A stretch of 64,000 bases of DNA, taken from Bacteroidaceae bacterium. GTDB lineage: Bacteria > Bacteroidota > Bacteroidia > Bacteroidales > Bacteroidaceae. Below are positions 3,163-39,353 of this stretch, piece by piece (position 1 is the first letter of the stretch; each line of letters opens with the position of its first letter). The notes under the pieces are model-generated. The model ran no database searches. It saw only the letters and a program-made list of their open reading frames with translations, and was not told the DNA's origin. A program made the position numbers and the translations under genes. The stretch lies in assembly GCA_024398635.1 (NCBI GenBank), contig JAKSIV010000002.1:1-64000 (forward strand), written 5' to 3'.

Positions 3163-4203
3163 ATGAAGAAACGTTATCTTTTCCCTGCGGACTACATGGC
3201 AGACCCCTCTGTACATGTGTTCAACGGCAGAGTTTACATCTATCCTTCACACGACTGGGAATGCGAAAATGTCGAGAATGACAATGGCGACCAGTATGTC
3301 ATGAAAGATTATCACGTCCTTTCCACAGATGACATTATGAACGGCGAGGTCGTTGACCACGGCAAGGTTATAGGCCTGGAAGATATTCCATGGGCTGGCC
3401 GCCAACTTTGGGACTGCGACGTTCAGGAGTATGAAATTGAAGTTCCCACCAACGCAGAGGAACAGGCCCAGGGAATGGGTTACAGCAAGAAAGTCAAGCG
3501 TTACATCATGTACTTCCCCATGAAGGACCGCAACGATGTATTCCATTGGGGTACAGCCATTGCACAGCGTCCCGAGGGACCGTTCATTCCCAATCCCGCT
3601 CCGGTTGCAGGTAGCTACAGCATTGACATGTGCGCTTTCCGCGACGATGCAGACGGTGAGGTTTATGTATACTTCGGCGGTCTGTGGGGCGGACAGCTTC
3701 AGCGCTATAAAGATAACATCCATCTGGAGACTCCCTACCTGCCGGCAGGCAAGGAGGATGCTCTCCCCAGCCGTTGCGTTCGTCTGACCAAGGACGGTCT
3801 CAATTTTGCCGAGGCTCCGCGTCCAATTCTGGTGGTTGACGAAAAGGGCAATCCCCTCAAGGCTGATGATCCGCACCGTTTCTTCGAGGCATCATGGATG
3901 CATAAGTACAAAGGAAAATATTACTTCTCATATTCCACCGGCGACAGCCATTTCCTGTGCTATGCTACCGGTGACAATCCTTACGGTCCTTTCACCTATC
4001 AGGGCGTAATCCTTACTCCCGTCGTAGGCTGGACCACCCATCATTCCATTATAGAGTACAAGGGCAAATGGTATCTTTTCCATCATGACAGTGTGCCTTC
4101 AGGCGGCAAGTCATGGCTCCGCAGCCTTAAGGTGTGCGAGATAGAATATGATGCTCAAGGCCATATCAAGACCATTGAGGGTATTGATATTGATAAGGAG
4201 TGA
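3163..4203 (+). CDS. GH43-family glycosidase, cytoplasmic
   Basis: Glycoside hydrolase family 43 (five-bladed beta-propeller), most likely an alpha-L-arabinofuranosidase or beta-xylosidase. It has 346 residues and no signal peptide, so it should act on imported oligosaccharides in the cytoplasm. The catalytic triad can be placed: Asp14 in ADPSV (general base), Asp155 in SIDMCAF (pKa modulator) and Glu242 in RFFEASW (general acid). The HHSIIEYKGKWYLFHHD stretch near the C-terminus is typical. It starts the locus and is 38 bases before the first FAS1 gene, so probably co-transcribed. Arabinofuranosidase and xylosidase cannot be separated from sequence. Confidence 0.85.
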   Translation: MKKRYLFPADYMADPSVHVFNGRVYIYPSHDWECENVENDNGDQYVMKDYHVLSTDDIMNGEVVDHGKVIGLEDIPWAGRQLWDCDVQEYEIEVPTNAEEQAQGMGYSKKVKRYIMYFPMKDRNDVFHWGTAIAQRPEGPFIPNPAPVAGSYSIDMCAFRDDADGEVYVYFGGLWGGQLQRYKDNIHLETPYLPAGKEDALPSRCVRLTKDGLNFAEAPRPILVVDEKGNPLKADDPHRFFEASWMHKYKGKYYFSYSTGDSHFLCYATGDNPYGPFTYQGVILTPVVGWTTHHSIIEYKGKWYLFHHDSVPSGGKSWLRSLKVCEIEYDAQGHIKTIEGIDIDKE

Positions 4204-32646: not shown

Positions 32647-34125
32647 TTATTGTTGTATGTATGATTTCCAGCGCTGGTAGGCCTCGTCATATGCGGGCAT
32701 ATCGGAAGCCTTGGGCTCAATGACGCGGATCTTCTGCAGTGATGCGAATGCCTCGTTGTGGTCATTGTAGATGTGGGCTCCCATACCTGCACCCTTGGCT
32801 GCACCGATTGAGCCGTCAGTATCGTAAAGCTCGATGGTGGCACCGGTAACACCGGCCAGTGTGTCACGGAACAGCGGGCTGAGAAACATGTTGGCGTTGC
32901 CGGCATGGATCTTGTTTACGGGCATACCCATATCCTCCATGATCTCGATACCGTATTTGAATGAGAATACGATACCCTCCTGGGCTGCGCGCAGCAGATG
33001 TGAGCGGTTGTGGATGTTGAAGTTCACGCCGTTGAAGCTGCAGCCGCGCTCCTTGTTTTCAAGTACACGCTCGGCACCGTTTCCGAAAGGCAGAACTGAT
33101 ACGCCGCCTGCACCGATGGGTGCCTGGGCAGCCAGGTCATTCATCTCGGCATAACCGATGCCCTCGGGTACGATGTTGCGCTTCATCCATGCATTAAGGA
33201 TACCTGTGCCGTTGATGCAGAGCAGTATTCCCAGACGGTTGAATCCGGTCTTGTGGTTTACGTGTGCGAATGTGTTGACTCTTGACTTGGGATCGTAGCT
33301 GATCTCTCCGTTTACACCGTATACGACACCTGATGTACCTGCGGTCGATGCAATTTCACCGGGCTCGAATACGTTCAGTGAAAGGGCGTTGTTGGGCTGG
33401 TCACCGGCGCGGTAGGTTACGGGTGTGCCCTCGGCCAGGCCAAGTTCCTTGGCAGCGGCAGCGGTCAGTTTGCCCTGCTCGGCGAAGGTAGGAACGATCT
33501 TGGGTATGAATGAACGCGGAATGCCGTAGTAGTCAAGCAGGAAGCCGGCTACATCGCCTGTCTGGAAATCCCAGAACATACCCTCTGACAGTCCTGAAAT
33601 GGTGGTTGCAATCTCACCGGTCAGACGCATAGCGATATAGTCGCCGGGGAGCATGATCTTGTCGATTTTATCAAATATCTTGGGTTCGTTCTGCTTTACC
33701 CACGACAGCTTTGAAGCGGTAAAGTTACCGGGGGTGTTGAGCAGGTGAGTCAGGCACTGTGAGCGGCCCAGCTCCTGGAATGCGTTCTCACCGATGCCGA
33801 CGGCACGTGAGTCACACCAGATGATTGCGGGACGCAACACCTTCTGGTTCTTGTCTACGCAAACCAGTCCGTGCATCTGATAGGAGATACCGATTGCCTT
33901 GATGTCCTTAACGTCTACCCTGCACTGTGACATTACATCGGCTGTGGCGGCTTTGAGATATGACCACCAGTCATCGGGGTTCTGCTCAGCCCAGCCGGGG
34001 TTGACTGCTTTGATGGGTGCTTCACTCTTTGGGGCGAACGCGGTTGCCACGCAACTGCCGTTCCGGGCATCTACAAGACTGCACTTCACTGAAGAGCTGC
34101 CTATGTCATAACCTAACAGATACAT
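32647..34125 (-). CDS. xylB: Xylulokinase (FGGY family)
   Basis: Cytoplasmic kinase phosphorylating D-xylulose to xylulose 5-phosphate for the pentose phosphate pathway. At 492 residues it has the expected length. The N-terminal ATPase motif GYDIGSSSVKCSLVD, the sugar-binding region HGLVCVD, and the second-domain motif TAGTSGVVYGVNG are visible. Another FGGY kinase specificity is possible, but pairing with a GH8 gene supports xylose. No xylose isomerase is seen in the window. A TAnnTTTG box lies about 50 bases upstream. Confidence 0.9.
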   Translation of the reverse strand: MYLLGYDIGSSSVKCSLVDARNGSCVATAFAPKSEAPIKAVNPGWAEQNPDDWWSYLKAATADVMSQCRVDVKDIKAIGISYQMHGLVCVDKNQKVLRPAIIWCDSRAVGIGENAFQELGRSQCLTHLLNTPGNFTASKLSWVKQNEPKIFDKIDKIMLPGDYIAMRLTGEIATTISGLSEGMFWDFQTGDVAGFLLDYYGIPRSFIPKIVPTFAEQGKLTAAAAKELGLAEGTPVTYRAGDQPNNALSLNVFEPGEIASTAGTSGVVYGVNGEISYDPKSRVNTFAHVNHKTGFNRLGILLCINGTGILNAWMKRNIVPEGIGYAEMNDLAAQAPIGAGGVSVLPFGNGAERVLENKERGCSFNGVNFNIHNRSHLLRAAQEGIVFSFKYGIEIMEDMGMPVNKIHAGNANMFLSPLFRDTLAGVTGATIELYDTDGSIGAAKGAGMGAHIYNDHNEAFASLQKIRVIEPKASDMPAYDEAYQRWKSYIQQ

Positions 34126-34176
34126 ACTTTTTCCTTATAATTGATTGTAATTTTCCTTGTTTACCATTAAGGCTAA

Positions 34177-34184
34177 CAAAGGTA
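34177..34184 (-). promoter_or_regulatory. -7 box of the xylB-GH8 operon
   Basis: On the minus strand this reads TACCTTTG, a match to TAnnTTTG, located 52 bases before the xylB start. A TTG about 22 bases further upstream is a weak -33 candidate and falls in a short CAATTGGGG remnant. Confidence 0.55.
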
Positions 34185-34246
34185 GTGAAAAGTACTGGAA
34201 TGAGCACAATTGGGGCTATTCTTTTTGGGTGTTGCGCGGACGTTTT

Positions 34247-34376
34247 GACATGTTTTCCGCGAGGGAACGTATTCTCGTAGCCCAAGCGTCCAAGAATACG
34301 CCCGTACCTGCGTTAACAGCGGACGCTCCGGCAGGGAACCCGCGTGATAGCGTATTCTCTTGGTCGGAGCGTCCGG
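34247..34376 (+). repeat. 130-bp repeat, left copy of an inverted pair
   Basis: This segment recurs in opposite orientation at 38145-38273, with about 14 differences by hand alignment. It contains its own inverted arms GGACGCTCCG (34321-34330) and CGGAGCGTCC (34365-34374), so it can fold. Small ORFs across it look spurious. The stretch 34126-34471 otherwise holds only promoter boxes and a CAATTGGGG remnant near 34206. Confidence 0.85.
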
Positions 34377-34427
34377 CGGAAAGAGCGTTTTTGTGCAAGA
34401 CATACCGTGAGTTACGCCAAAAATGAG

Positions 34428-34435
34428 TACTTTTG
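34428..34435 (+). promoter_or_regulatory. -7 box of the GH95 gene
   Basis: TACTTTTG fits TAnnTTTG and lies 37 bases before the ATG at 34472. It argues against a TTG start at 34433, which would overlap the promoter. Confidence 0.5.
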
Positions 34436-34471
34436 ACACCTATATTAAATGTTACTTACCAGATTCCGACT

Positions 34472-36847
34472 ATGAAGAAAACTTTGCTTTTTACAGTTGT
34501 GACCCTGATTTCGCTTTCATGTACGTCACAGACCGACACTGACCTTAAACTGTGGTACGATGCTCCCGCACGCCAGTGGACCGATGCCCTCCCGTTGGGA
34601 AACGGCCGTCTTGGTGCGATGATATTCGGCACTCCAGCCCAGGAGCGTATCCAGATAAACGAGGAGACTATCTGGGGCGGAGGTCCCCACAACAACGTCA
34701 ACTACGACGCCAAGGACGGACTTGAGCAGATCCGCACAGCCCTTTGGGAGGGCCGAAGGTCCGATGCACAGGCACTTTGCGATGAGTACATTTCGTCCAA
34801 GAGCGCTCACGGCATGCCTTACCAGACTGCCGGTTCGCTGATGCTGGATTTTGACGGAATCACCGATTTCACCGATTATTACAGGGAACTTGACATAGAG
34901 AAAGCGGTAGCTCTGACACGCTTCAAGGCCAACGGCGTTGAATATATCCGTGAGAGTTTCGTGTCGTTCGCAGACCAACTGATAATAATGCGCATTACCG
35001 CCTCAAAGAAAGGGTCAGTCTCTTTCAAGGCACGCTATGACCTTCCCTATCGTGATGACCGCATACAGGACAGGAGTTCAGGGTTGATGGAAGGCGGCAA
35101 AGCCGGCATAATGTTTTTGACCTGCAAGGGCGATGACCATGAAGGCATAGAGGGAAAGATCCTCTTTACCGACTTCACCCTGATACAGGCAGAGGGTGGT
35201 CTGGTTACATCCGGTGACGGAAACATAGGCGTTGCCGGTGCCGATGCCGTAACCATCTACATCTCCATAGGAACCAACTTCGTCAACTACCAGGACGTAA
35301 GCGGGGATAACATGAAGAAGGCCAGCGAACCCATCGGGAAATACCTTGACAACAGGGACAGCGACAGATATGAAAAGGCGCTTGCCTCACATATAGAGGA
35401 GTATCAGAAGCAGTTCGGCACCGTAACTCTTGATCTGGGTACAAACGATCAGGCCAAACTGCCTACAGATCAGCGTGTAGCCCAGTTTGCATCAACTTTT
35501 GATCCGCAGCTGGTAACACTGTACTTCCAGTTCGGACGTTATCTGCTCATATGCTGCTCGCAGCCGGGCGGACAGGCCGCAAACCTGCAGGGAATATGGA
35601 ACGAGAGCCGTCAGGCCCCCTGGGACGGTAAGTATACCACCAACATCAATGTCGAGATGAACTACTGGCCCGCATTCGTATGCGGCATTGAGCAAACGTT
35701 TGATCCTTTCCTGCAGCTGGTTAAGGATTGTGCCGAGCATGGAGAGGAGACTGCCGCCATGTACGGCTGCCGAGGCTGGACATTACACCATAATACCGAT
35801 ATCTGGCGCTCCACAGGAGCTGTTGACGGGGCATATAACGGCATGTGGCCCACCGGTGCCGCATGGTTCTGCTCACAGATCTGGGACGGCTATCTTTTCA
35901 ATCAGGATCGCAAGTATCTTGAGGAGATTTATCCCATCATGAAGAGCGCCTGCGAGTTCTTCATCGATTTCCTCGTCGAGGAACCCGTATCGGGCAACAA
36001 ATACTTAGTGGTTGCACCCTCATATTCACCTGAGAACGCACCTCATGTACAGGATGTACTGGGCAAGGGCAACATCACAACGGTGTTCGGCGCCACAATG
36101 GACAACCAGATGATGGCCGACCTGTTTGGCAACACCATCGAGGCAGCTGCCCTGATGGGTGAGAAAGGAGCCTTTGTAGATACTCTCAAGAACATAAAGA
36201 GCCGTCTGGCTCCCATGAAGGTAGGCAGCTGGGGACAGCTCCAGGAGTGGTTCGAGGATTGGGATGATCCCAAGGACAACCACCGTCACGTATCACATCT
36301 GTGGGGAATGTATCCCGGACATCAGATTACGGCCGATACTCCCGAACTCTTCCAGGCCGTACGTACCAGTCTTGAGGCACGCGGAGACGAGTCAACCGGC
36401 TGGTCAATGGGCTGGAAGGTGTGCCTGTGGGCACGTCTGCTTGACGGCAACCACGCATACAAACTCATTCAGGACCAGATCAAACCTGCCGGCGGACGCG
36501 GATTCGGCGGACGCGGCGGCACATACAACAACCTGTTCGATGCCCACCCGCCATTCCAGATTGACGGTAACTTTGGCTGCACCGCCGGTATAGCCGAGAT
36601 GCTGGTGCAGAGCCACACCGGTAAGGTTGTGCTCCTGCCTGCTCTGCCCGATGTATGGAAGGACGGCACAGTGAAAGGTCTGCAGTGTCGCGGCGGATTC
36701 GTTTTGGAGGAGTTGACCTGGAAGAACGGCAAGCCCGCAACCGTCAAGGTACGCTCTACAGTAGGAGGAAAGCTGAATATAAGCTGGAACGGCAATGACA
36801 AGAGTATCAAAACCAAGTCCGGCAAGACTTACACGATCAAATTCTGA
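34472..36847 (+). CDS. GH95 family alpha-L-fucosidase or alpha-L-galactosidase, lipoprotein
   Basis: Family 95 inverting glycosidase, about 791 residues. The start at 34472 gives a signal peptide with lipobox LISLSC (Cys17). The N-terminal beta domain starts [19 protein letters not shown], typical of the family. The catalytic barrel shows [12 protein letters not shown] (conserved Asn pair), VAPSYSPEN (general acid Glu) and FQIDGNFG (conserved Asp). Known members cut alpha-1,2-fucose or alpha-L-galactose, for example from xyloglucan side chains. It forms a two-gene unit with the downstream porin, and the unit is bracketed by inverted copies of a 130-bp repeat. Confidence 0.92.
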
Positions 36848-36854
36848 AAAAAGT

Positions 36855-36889
36855 ACAATTGGGGTCTGTCCCCAATTGTATCATTTTTG
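36855..36889 (+). terminator. Palindromic repeat acting as terminator after GH95
   Basis: ACAATTGGGG (36855-36864), TCTGT loop and CCCCAATTGT (36870-36879) form a perfect 10-bp stem, followed by ATCATTTTT. A near copy follows the U32 gene at 40586, so it belongs to a dispersed repeat family. Confidence 0.75.
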
Positions 36890-36910
36890 ACAATACCTAA
36901 ACAATAAACA

Positions 36911-38122
36911 ATGAAAATCAAATCTTTAATGTTGCAGGCCCTCGTAGTCAGCCTGCTTCCGTTGAGCGCAAACGCTCAGAAAAACGTTTCAATCGATTGG
37001 TACGGATTCGTAGCCGCACAGTCATGGATAAACACGCATGAGAGTGCTGCCGGTGCCGAAGGGTTCCTTTATCTCTATCCTACAGACCGCGTCGAGAATG
37101 CGGCCGATCAGCATGACGAGAGAGCAATTGCGCAGGGATCATGGTTCGGAACAATGGCCCGTCTGGGATTTGTCCTGAAAGGCCCTGAAATCTTCGGTGC
37201 AGCTTCACGCGCAAAGGCAGAGCTTGAGTTCTCAGGTCACAGCGCTCCCGGCAGCGTCCTTTACCGTCACGCTTTCATGGCTTTGGATTGGGAAAACAGC
37301 ACTCTCACCCTCGGTCAGACCTGGCACCCCATGAATGACCTCTTCCCCAGCACCGTGGGTATTGCCATCGGCTCACCTTTCAACGCCCTCAACCGCAGCC
37401 CGCAGTTGCGTTATGAATACTTCCTGGGTAACGACAAGAACATCAAGCTGATGGGTGCTGCCATATTCCAGGCTGCTAACGCATCATTCGGCCCTACCGG
37501 CAAATCATACAACTATGCCCGCAAGTCAATGGTACCCATGCTGTATGCCGGAGTTGATTTCACCTTGGGTGACTTCAAGGTAGGCGGCGGACTTGAGTAT
37601 CAGCACATATCTCCCTACGTTGACATTGCAGACAACAACAAGAAATACTATCTGAACGGTCTTTGCGGAATGCTTCAGGCACAGTACGCTCATGAGAAAC
37701 TCTCCGTCAAGGCCAAGACCCTGATAGGCCAGAATATGTCACATCTGGGTATCTGCTCAGGTTACGGTTTGGTTGATCACCTTAACCCCGGCGAGATCCG
37801 CTTCGCACCTCTTGCCGCATCTTCATCATGGGCTCAGGTTCAGTGGGGCGGTGACCTCAAGTTCGGTCTTATGGGTGGTTACATGAGCAACTGGGGTGCC
37901 GGCAAGGACCTTGCAGTAATCTACGTAGCCGAGGGTGGCACGATCGACAACATGTGGCGCATTGCTCCCAACGTCCAGTACAACGTGGGCAATATGAATT
38001 TGGGCGTGGAGTATGAACTCACCACAGTGGCATACGGAACACCCCAGGCCAACGGAACGGTTTCAGACACACACAACGTAAGCAACAACCGCCTGCTCCT
38101 GTCCGTAATGTACGCCTTCTAA
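36911..38122 (+). CDS. Outer-membrane porin-like beta-barrel protein
   Basis: A 403-residue protein with signal peptide (ends SANAQ) and alternating hydrophobic/aromatic beta strands through to a C-terminal Phe (LLLSVMYAF), typical of outer-membrane barrels. The opening VSIDWYGFVAAQSWINTHES and RLGFVLKGPE resemble DcaP-type trimeric porins, but I cannot confirm the subfamily. It follows GH95 by 63 bases, with a terminator-like palindrome between, so it may be expressed separately. It could let small products of GH95 through the outer membrane, by inference. Confidence 0.75.
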   Translation: MKIKSLMLQALVVSLLPLSANAQKNVSIDWYGFVAAQSWINTHESAAGAEGFLYLYPTDRVENAADQHDERAIAQGSWFGTMARLGFVLKGPEIFGAASRAKAELEFSGHSAPGSVLYRHAFMALDWENSTLTLGQTWHPMNDLFPSTVGIAIGSPFNALNRSPQLRYEYFLGNDKNIKLMGAAIFQAANASFGPTGKSYNYARKSMVPMLYAGVDFTLGDFKVGGGLEYQHISPYVDIADNNKKYYLNGLCGMLQAQYAHEKLSVKAKTLIGQNMSHLGICSGYGLVDHLNPGEIRFAPLAASSSWAQVQWGGDLKFGLMGGYMSNWGAGKDLAVIYVAEGGTIDNMWRIAPNVQYNVGNMNLGVEYELTTVAYGTPQANGTVSDTHNVSNNRLLLSVMYAF

Positions 38123-38144
38123 GAGCAGGGACATCCCATATTTG

Positions 38145-38273
38145 CCGGACGCTCCGACATGAGAATACGCTTGTACGCGGGTTCTTGGTCGGAGCGTCCT
38201 CTGTTCACGCAGGTGCGGGCGTATTCTTGGACGCTTGGGCTGAGAGAATACGTTCCCTCGCGGAAAACGTGTC
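38145..38273 (-). repeat. 130-bp repeat, right copy of an inverted pair
   Basis: Reverse complement of the element at 34247-34376, with one single-base gap. On its dus side, a further partial piece (GCAGGTGCGGGCGTATT at 38293-38309) repeats an internal part of the element. It fills most of the gap between the porin and dus genes. No transposase or integrase lies between the copies. Confidence 0.85.
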
Positions 38274-38363
38274 GGAGCGTTCGCGGGCGTGCGCAGGTGC
38301 GGGCGTATTTTTTAAGGCGTGGGGCGGGGGATTCGGGGAGAAAGCTGTATCTTAGCAATTTGT

Positions 38364-39353
38364 ATGAAGATAGGAGAGATAGATTTTGGGGAGAGGCCGG
38401 TGTTTCTGGCTCCGATGGAGGATGTGACTGATCCGGCGTTCCGTCTGCTGTGCAAGCGGTTCGGGGCTGATATGGTCTATACGGAGTTCGTGTCGAGCGA
38501 TGCTCTGATACGCGAGGTGAACCGCACCATGCAGAAACTGACCATCAGTGATGAGGAGCGTCCTGTGGCTATTCAGATTTATGGCAAGGATACCGATGCT
38601 ATGGTGGGTGCGGCCAAGATGGTCGAGGCTGCCGGGCCCGATGTGCTGGACCTGAACTTTGGCTGCCCGGTCAAGAAAGTGGCAGGCAAGGGAGGTGGTG
38701 CAGGTATGCTCCAGAATATCCCCAAGATGCTGGAGATAACCCGTGCGGTGGTTGATGCGGTCAAGATTCCGGTTACGGTAAAGACCCGTCTGGGCTGGAA
38801 AGACGAGAGCAAGATTATCGTTGAACTGGCCGAGCAGTTGCAGGACTGCGGCATCAAGGCACTGACCATTCATGGCCGTACCCGTGCCCAGATGTATACC
38901 GGACAGGCCGACTGGACGCTCATAGGCAAGGTAAAGGAGAATCCCCGCATGAAGATCCCTATCATAGGAAACGGCGATATCACTACTCCTGAGCGTGCCA
39001 AAGAGTGTTTTGACCGATACGGAGTGGATGCCATAATGATTGGACGCGGCAGTTTTGGACGTCCTTGGATTTTTGAGGAGGTCAAGCATTACCTTACCAC
39101 GGGTGAGTTTTGGCAGGATCCCGGCTCCAAGTGGAAGATGGATGTGCTCAAGCAGGAGACTCTGGACAGCATTGCCCGCCTGGATGAGCGCCGTGGTATA
39201 GTGCATATTCGCCGTCATCTTGCCGCGAGTCCGCTGTTCAAGGGGCTGGAGGATTTCCGCCATACCCGTATTGAGATGCTCCGCGCCGAAACGGTGGATG
39301 AATTGTTCGCGATTATGGACCGCATTACAGAAAAATGGTTTGGAAATGAATAG
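38364..39353 (+). CDS. dus: tRNA-dihydrouridine synthase
   Basis: FMN enzyme that reduces uridine to dihydrouridine in tRNA D-loops; about 329 residues. The ATG at 38364 gives the standard Dus start KIGEIDFGERPVFLAPMEDVTDPAFR. The FMN-binding and catalytic region NFGCPVKKVAGKGGGAGML contains the active-site Cys near residue 100. LTIHGRTRAQMYTGQADW and GNGDI follow. The C-terminal helical domain includes HIRRHLAASPLFKGL. It is a DusB-like member. Its end overlaps the next gene by eight bases. Confidence 0.92.
   Translation: MKIGEIDFGERPVFLAPMEDVTDPAFRLLCKRFGADMVYTEFVSSDALIREVNRTMQKLTISDEERPVAIQIYGKDTDAMVGAAKMVEAAGPDVLDLNFGCPVKKVAGKGGGAGMLQNIPKMLEITRAVVDAVKIPVTVKTRLGWKDESKIIVELAEQLQDCGIKALTIHGRTRAQMYTGQADWTLIGKVKENPRMKIPIIGNGDITTPERAKECFDRYGVDAIMIGRGSFGRPWIFEEVKHYLTTGEFWQDPGSKWKMDVLKQETLDSIARLDERRGIVHIRRHLAASPLFKGLEDFRHTRIEMLRAETVDELFAIMDRITEKWFGNE

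Follow-up and report, generated by a model that had tools for sequence, protein, structure and literature searches.

REP-associated tyrosine transposases (RAYTs) are usually single-copy transposases whose benefit to the host is unclear. In the RAYT/REP systems described by Nunvar et al. (2010, PMC2817692), some genomes have REPs gathered around rayt, and the basic module of a BIME places an inverted unit between direct ones. TnpA_REP proteins of subclass 2.6 have a mean length of 179 aa and carry the tyrosine motif YIH[QN]NP (PMC6006769), and the CGTC-tagged REPs possess stems of 8–9 bp and loops of 4–5 nt and have no associated transposase (PMC3733652). In E. coli, novel junctions were often found in structure-forming REP sequences, in a setting where inversions also occur, and template switching at REPs was proposed in that organism (PMC3161906).

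The locus considered here belongs to a rumen-type Bacteroidaceae bacterium and lies in a window of 64,000 nucleotides (the whole stretch of DNA that was analysed; contig JAKSIV010000002.1, positions 1 to 64,000 of the forward strand), in which a GH95 glycosidase gene and a gene for a porin-like protein are bracketed by two inverted copies of a repeat called E. E is likely to be a REP/BIME-like module of a divergent RAYT, with the inverted pair as its leftovers and with a flipped block in one related genome (G002). The system shares with the RAYT/REP systems (PMC2817692) a Y1/HUH-type gene flanked by palindromic intergenic repeats, repeat arms that vary between RAYT loci, the direct-inverted-direct module and a local accumulation of repeats near rayt. 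Unlike classical REPs, E is present in 1–5 copies per genome at one locus and has no GTAG head: the GTAG (GT[AG]G) sequence usual for REPs precedes the CCCAAGCGTCC arm in only 5 of the 22 aligned E copies and is not conserved. The RAYT-like gene also differs from those of PMC2817692 in that the whole-module copies on its two sides are direct rather than inverted, and in that it encodes a protein of roughly double the length, which carries a C-terminal extension. Subclass 2.6 (PMC6006769) is likewise found in Bacteroidetes hosts with atypical secondary structures near the gene, whereas the proteins of the present family have 310–343 aa and a Y[ICV]L[RK]N motif, and the NP of the known subclasses is missing from most members. 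As with the CGTC-tagged REPs (PMC3733652), E occurs in Bacteroidetes and its arms end in GCGTCC, but its hairpin is long-looped and a RAYT adjoins it in relatives. Rearrangement breakpoints in REP-type sequence are common to G002 and the E. coli junctions (PMC3161906), although the latter mostly involve homologies of 5–32 bp in starved laboratory cells, as against about 130 bp in the genome of a species here. No REP/BIME-mediated operon inversion, Prevotella included, was found in a limited literature search. What appears to emerge is a RAYT/REP-like system in Bacteroidetes whose repeats are confined to one locus, together with a readable record of an inverted operon: one species has reciprocal chimeric junctions, and its relatives have the uninverted form. 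The C-terminal extension, the locus-restricted repeats and the rearranging CAZyme operon make it a tractable case for studying the effects of RAYTs on their neighbourhood.

Structure and distribution of the E module

The segment 34247–34377 aligns with 38273–38144 on the minus strand over 131 columns with 88.55% identity (blastn within the window; 14 mismatches, 1 gap, E 1e-43), in agreement with the initial annotation, which had counted about 14 differences by hand between 130-bp inverted copies. It had also assigned each copy its own inverted arms, and these were recovered: the window contains GGACGCTCCG at just two places (34321 and 38147) and CGGAGCGTCC likewise (34365 and 38190), one in each copy, and the two arms pair in one hairpin on DNA folding. 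Each copy is more stable than its dinucleotide shuffles, since whole-element folding gave z-scores of -2.8 for the left E and -4.2 for the right E. The similarity reaches a few bases further outward, with units starting near 34239 and ending near 38285. Inside each E, three cores follow one another in direct, inverted and direct orientation, with 16, 16 and 22–23 matches out of 24, so that E shows the palindromic units in alternating orientation of a REP/BIME element. An Rfam search of 33900–38600 matched no known RNA family.

Table 1. Features of the GH95–porin locus (positions in the window)
Feature	Position	Strand	Remarks
FGGY carbohydrate kinase (xylK)	32647..34125	-	Pfam FGGY_N 3.8e-56; fixed left flank for reading block orientation
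Left E module (REP/BIME-like)	34239..34378	+	inverted core between hairpin units 1 and 2
Arms of hairpin unit 2, left E	34321..34374	+	GGACGCTCCG / CGGAGCGTCC
GH95 glycosidase	34472..36847	+	first gene of bracketed pair; Pfam PF22124 E 1.2e-171
Porin-like protein, 403 aa	36911..38122	+	second gene of bracketed pair
Right E module	38144..38285	-	inverted relative to left E; ~20 bp past porin stop codon
Arms of hairpin unit 2, right E	38147..38199	-	GGACGCTCCG / CGGAGCGTCC
Degenerate partial third E unit adjoining right E	38292..38323	-	84% over 32 bp
tRNA dihydrouridine synthase (Dus)	38364..39353	+	Pfam PF01207 2.9e-87; fixed right flank for orientation

The two bracketed genes had been read as a pair of glycosidase and porin. 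The glycosidase part holds by its Pfam match to GH95, but the 403-aa product of the second gene gave no Pfam match even at E 10 and no NCBIfam match, and the name porin was guessed from how its sequence looks. The left E lies between divergent genes (xylK and GH95), and the presumed GH95 promoter region, from E to the start codon, is inside the block; a flip should therefore not switch GH95 off, which sets the locus apart from a classic promoter switch. The window locus has no RAYT and one E on each side of the GH95–porin pair.

Exactly two copies of E are present in the whole 2.36-Mb genome, both in the window. Close copies were found in 11 of the 37 genomes of the genus, always at the GH95–porin locus and in each relative on a single contig within about 11 kb, and many relatives are entirely without E; across the family (399 genomes), E was found in one of the 30 sampled genera. 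With two copies in its own genome and 1–5 in relatives, E lacks the high genome-wide copy number usual for classical REPs. More distant relatives of E were found among the 37 genomes at other loci in G001, G010 and G014 and once in G027. The core pattern CCSGCGTGNNNRCGTATT matches once in the genome of the window and singly at a few other places in relatives; isolated cores exist, but there is no abundant dispersed family. A dispersed repeat is ruled out by genome-wide DNA and covariance-model searches. The option of a common dispersed element, considered in the initial annotation, falls with these counts, and the presence at dozens of unrelated sites that it had set against a link to gene gain or inversion was found neither genome-wide nor in relatives.

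The RAYT-like gene of related genomes

An ORF of 310–343 aa lies between two direct E copies, 1.12–1.13 kb apart, in six genomes (G002, G006, G009, G030, G032 and G035), and in close relatives its usual place is directly upstream of GH95. NCBIfam NF047646 (REP-associated tyrosine transposase) matched 18 of 18 aligned homologues at E<=1 (best 5.9e-9), the locus's own member giving 0.02, below the 80-bit cut-off. Pfam Y1_Tnp matched 13 of the 18 (best 7e-4); Pfam gave no useful match for the first RAYT-like member alone, and PDB entry 4er8 (TnpA_REP) was matched weakly (E 0.96). Most of the scores are weak, and wherever curated cut-offs are given they fall short of them, so the proteins are described as a divergent RAYT-like family. 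An HxH motif (H60, H62) and Y117 are invariant in the 18 aligned sequences, and by its position Y117 would be the catalytic tyrosine. An AlphaFold2 model of the RAYT from 6 sequences reached a pLDDT of 41 and was unusable. Beyond about residue 140 (alignment A1), roughly 170 further residues form a C-terminal extension that is conserved across the family.

The RAYT genes are flanked by presumed cognate palindromic repeats, with E on both sides in the six genomes and related repeats around related RAYTs. Other RAYTs of the family sit among 83–95-bp tandem or 142-bp inverted repeats with other arms and a similar core. Tandem arrays of 95-bp palindromic units lie on both sides of the RAYT gene at locus L128 (2500–2774 and 3816–4263), and arrays of 83-bp palindromic units are found around the RAYT genes at L125 (149–412, 1706–2015 and 3117–3600) and on both sides of the gene at L126 (2011–2240 and 3385–3570). 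The array arms at these three loci differ from E (GGACACTA..., ACCTTAGGGA...), and the inner core GCAGGT....GCGTATT, present with its inverse, resembles the E core. The genome of the window itself harbors, at L124 (C23:24000-31000), 142-bp inverted repeats with 86% identity (432–573 and 4009–4150) on either side of a RAYT-like gene, which belongs to the same wider family, and a helicase-like ORF; this 142-bp repeat also occurs in partial form on contigs C32 and C39.

Orientation of the GH95–porin block and its breakpoints

Orientation was read against fixed references, the FGGY-kinase/GH8 side and the dus side, xylK being found in 37 of 37 genus genomes; A denotes the orientation of the window and B the opposite one. 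The GH95–porin pair occupies the same address in nearly all readable members of the genus, which does not support the initial annotation's option that the pair could be a mobile cassette; the mobile part, now or formerly, is the RAYT/E unit. B was found in 9 of the 20 members of one clade (G002, G003, G007, G012, G024, G025, G030, G031 and G036; the other 11 are A) and in no genome outside it, and the outgroup genomes that can be read are all A, orientations being compared between species throughout. The tree of the flank genes needs nine orientation changes (at least seven forced by well-supported branches) and that of GH95 five (at least four forced). Nine independent inversions are thus weakened as a reading, because the GH95 tree needs five and the gene trees conflict; as the trees disagree, alleles of the locus were probably also exchanged between species. 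E presence showed no association with orientation (7 of 11 A genomes, 4 of 9 B genomes).

In G002, the RAYT–GH95–porin block is inverted and has E at both ends. Its left E joins an xylK flank (93–99% to G032 and G035) to a porin end (about 91%), and its right E joins a RAYT-end flank (84–90%) to a dus flank (96% to G006); RAYT and GH95 still have the undisturbed inner E between them. From the matching of these flanks, the two junctions are best explained as a reciprocal pair, produced when the outer-left E exchanged with the right E. Misassembly at the repeat is possible but unlikely, given that the E copies of G002 differ by roughly 20%. The same xylK-E-porin junction is present on the left in G024, with an E-free spacer on the right. 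The suggestion of the initial annotation that the repeats are a site of inversion by recombination is hence borne out for G002, where both breakpoints lie in E and the flanks are reciprocal, but not for the other eight B genomes, which lack E at one or both junctions; at the GH95-dus junction, eight of the nine B genomes have no E and share a homologous E-free spacer of about 98 bp. This lack, together with the exchange of alleles between species, means that E does not explain most of the flips. Additionally, the locus of G031 is composite, with a GH95 5' end of the E type and a dus spacer of the B type. G030 was considered as a second predicted inversion product (by inner-E exchange) and was rejected: it appears to carry a G025-like B allele in which E-RAYT-E was later inserted beside the porin gene.

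In the window, the left E resembles the RAYT-bearing relatives on both sides: its flank towards xylK matches that of the outer-left E of G032 and G035 (89–91%), and its flank towards GH95 that of the inner-left E (77–80%). The left E is thereby suggested to be a solo copy, probably left after loss of the RAYT gene. Both flanks of the right E match those of the right E of G035 and G006 (86–95%).

Origin of the inverted pair and competing readings

The best-supported reading is a locally acting RAYT/REP-like system with occasional recombination between its opposed modules. E is built of palindromic, GC-rich units, two direct ones enclosing an inverted core, and the RAYT would have seeded a few copies of it, solely in the intergenic gaps of this locus, one of them reversed, after the porin gene. 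In the lineage of the window the RAYT would then have been lost, probably via recombination between its two flanking direct E copies, a loss that would leave one E per side of GH95–porin in inverted orientation; such a pair would be a substrate for recombination. In G002, exchange between the outer-left and right E may have flipped the RAYT–GH95–porin block, the crossover presumably being RecA-type homologous recombination (the default) or template switching, and not RAYT action. That the RAYT with its C-terminal extension acts locally and itself drives inversion between opposed E copies, so that the operon would be repeatedly flipped in populations of these rumen-type Bacteroidaceae, seems very improbable. 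Against the best-supported reading stand the orientation polymorphism, most of which is unexplained by E as it now stands, the weak RAYT profile scores, the missing GTAG head and the low copy number.

That the orientation polymorphism stems mainly from an old inversion independent of E, whose A and B alleles were passed between species by homologous recombination with E as a bystander in most genomes, is somewhat more likely than not. This reading would account for the spacer held in common by the E-free B genomes, for the conflict between the two gene trees (nine changes against five, at least four of them forced) and for the composite G031 locus, but it leaves unexplained both G002, with its two breakpoints in E and reciprocal flanks, and the xylK-E-porin left junction of G024. 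It is compatible with the locally acting RAYT/REP-like system, which concerns the repeats themselves and G002.

The inverted repeats around the block and the near-even split of the clade (11 A, 9 B) could also recall a phase-variable invertible segment with a dedicated site-specific recombinase. No such recombinase was found at the locus, where the RAYT-like gene is the sole recombinase-like gene between the repeats and is itself absent from the window; moreover, the repeats are 11% different, a flip keeps the presumed promoter region with GH95, and E-free genomes are inverted too, all of which makes such a segment hard to credit. If E were retained to stabilise mRNA 3' ends or to terminate transcription, roles proposed for REPs, this would fit the strong hairpin of the right E so close behind the porin stop and the presence of another E just past the GH95 stop in G006, G031 and G035, but the left E, with divergent genes on its two sides, is outside any 3' UTR, many relatives have no E, and this role is considered unlikely.

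Further observations concern this locus and its neighbourhood. The xylK-adjoining spacer that E fills elsewhere contains an unrelated insert with CACAATAGGGACGGTTC in G033 (L121) and G007 (L102), palindromic in G033. The GH95 gene of G031 (L064, 7829–10205) is split into two frames (residues 1–563 and 561–791), through either misassembly or a frameshift. In two genomes, G027 (L063) and G024 (L061), the U32-peptidase/GH51 pair next to the block likewise has an inverted orientation relative to dus; the U32-peptidase and GH51 genes of G027 are separated by a degenerate E.
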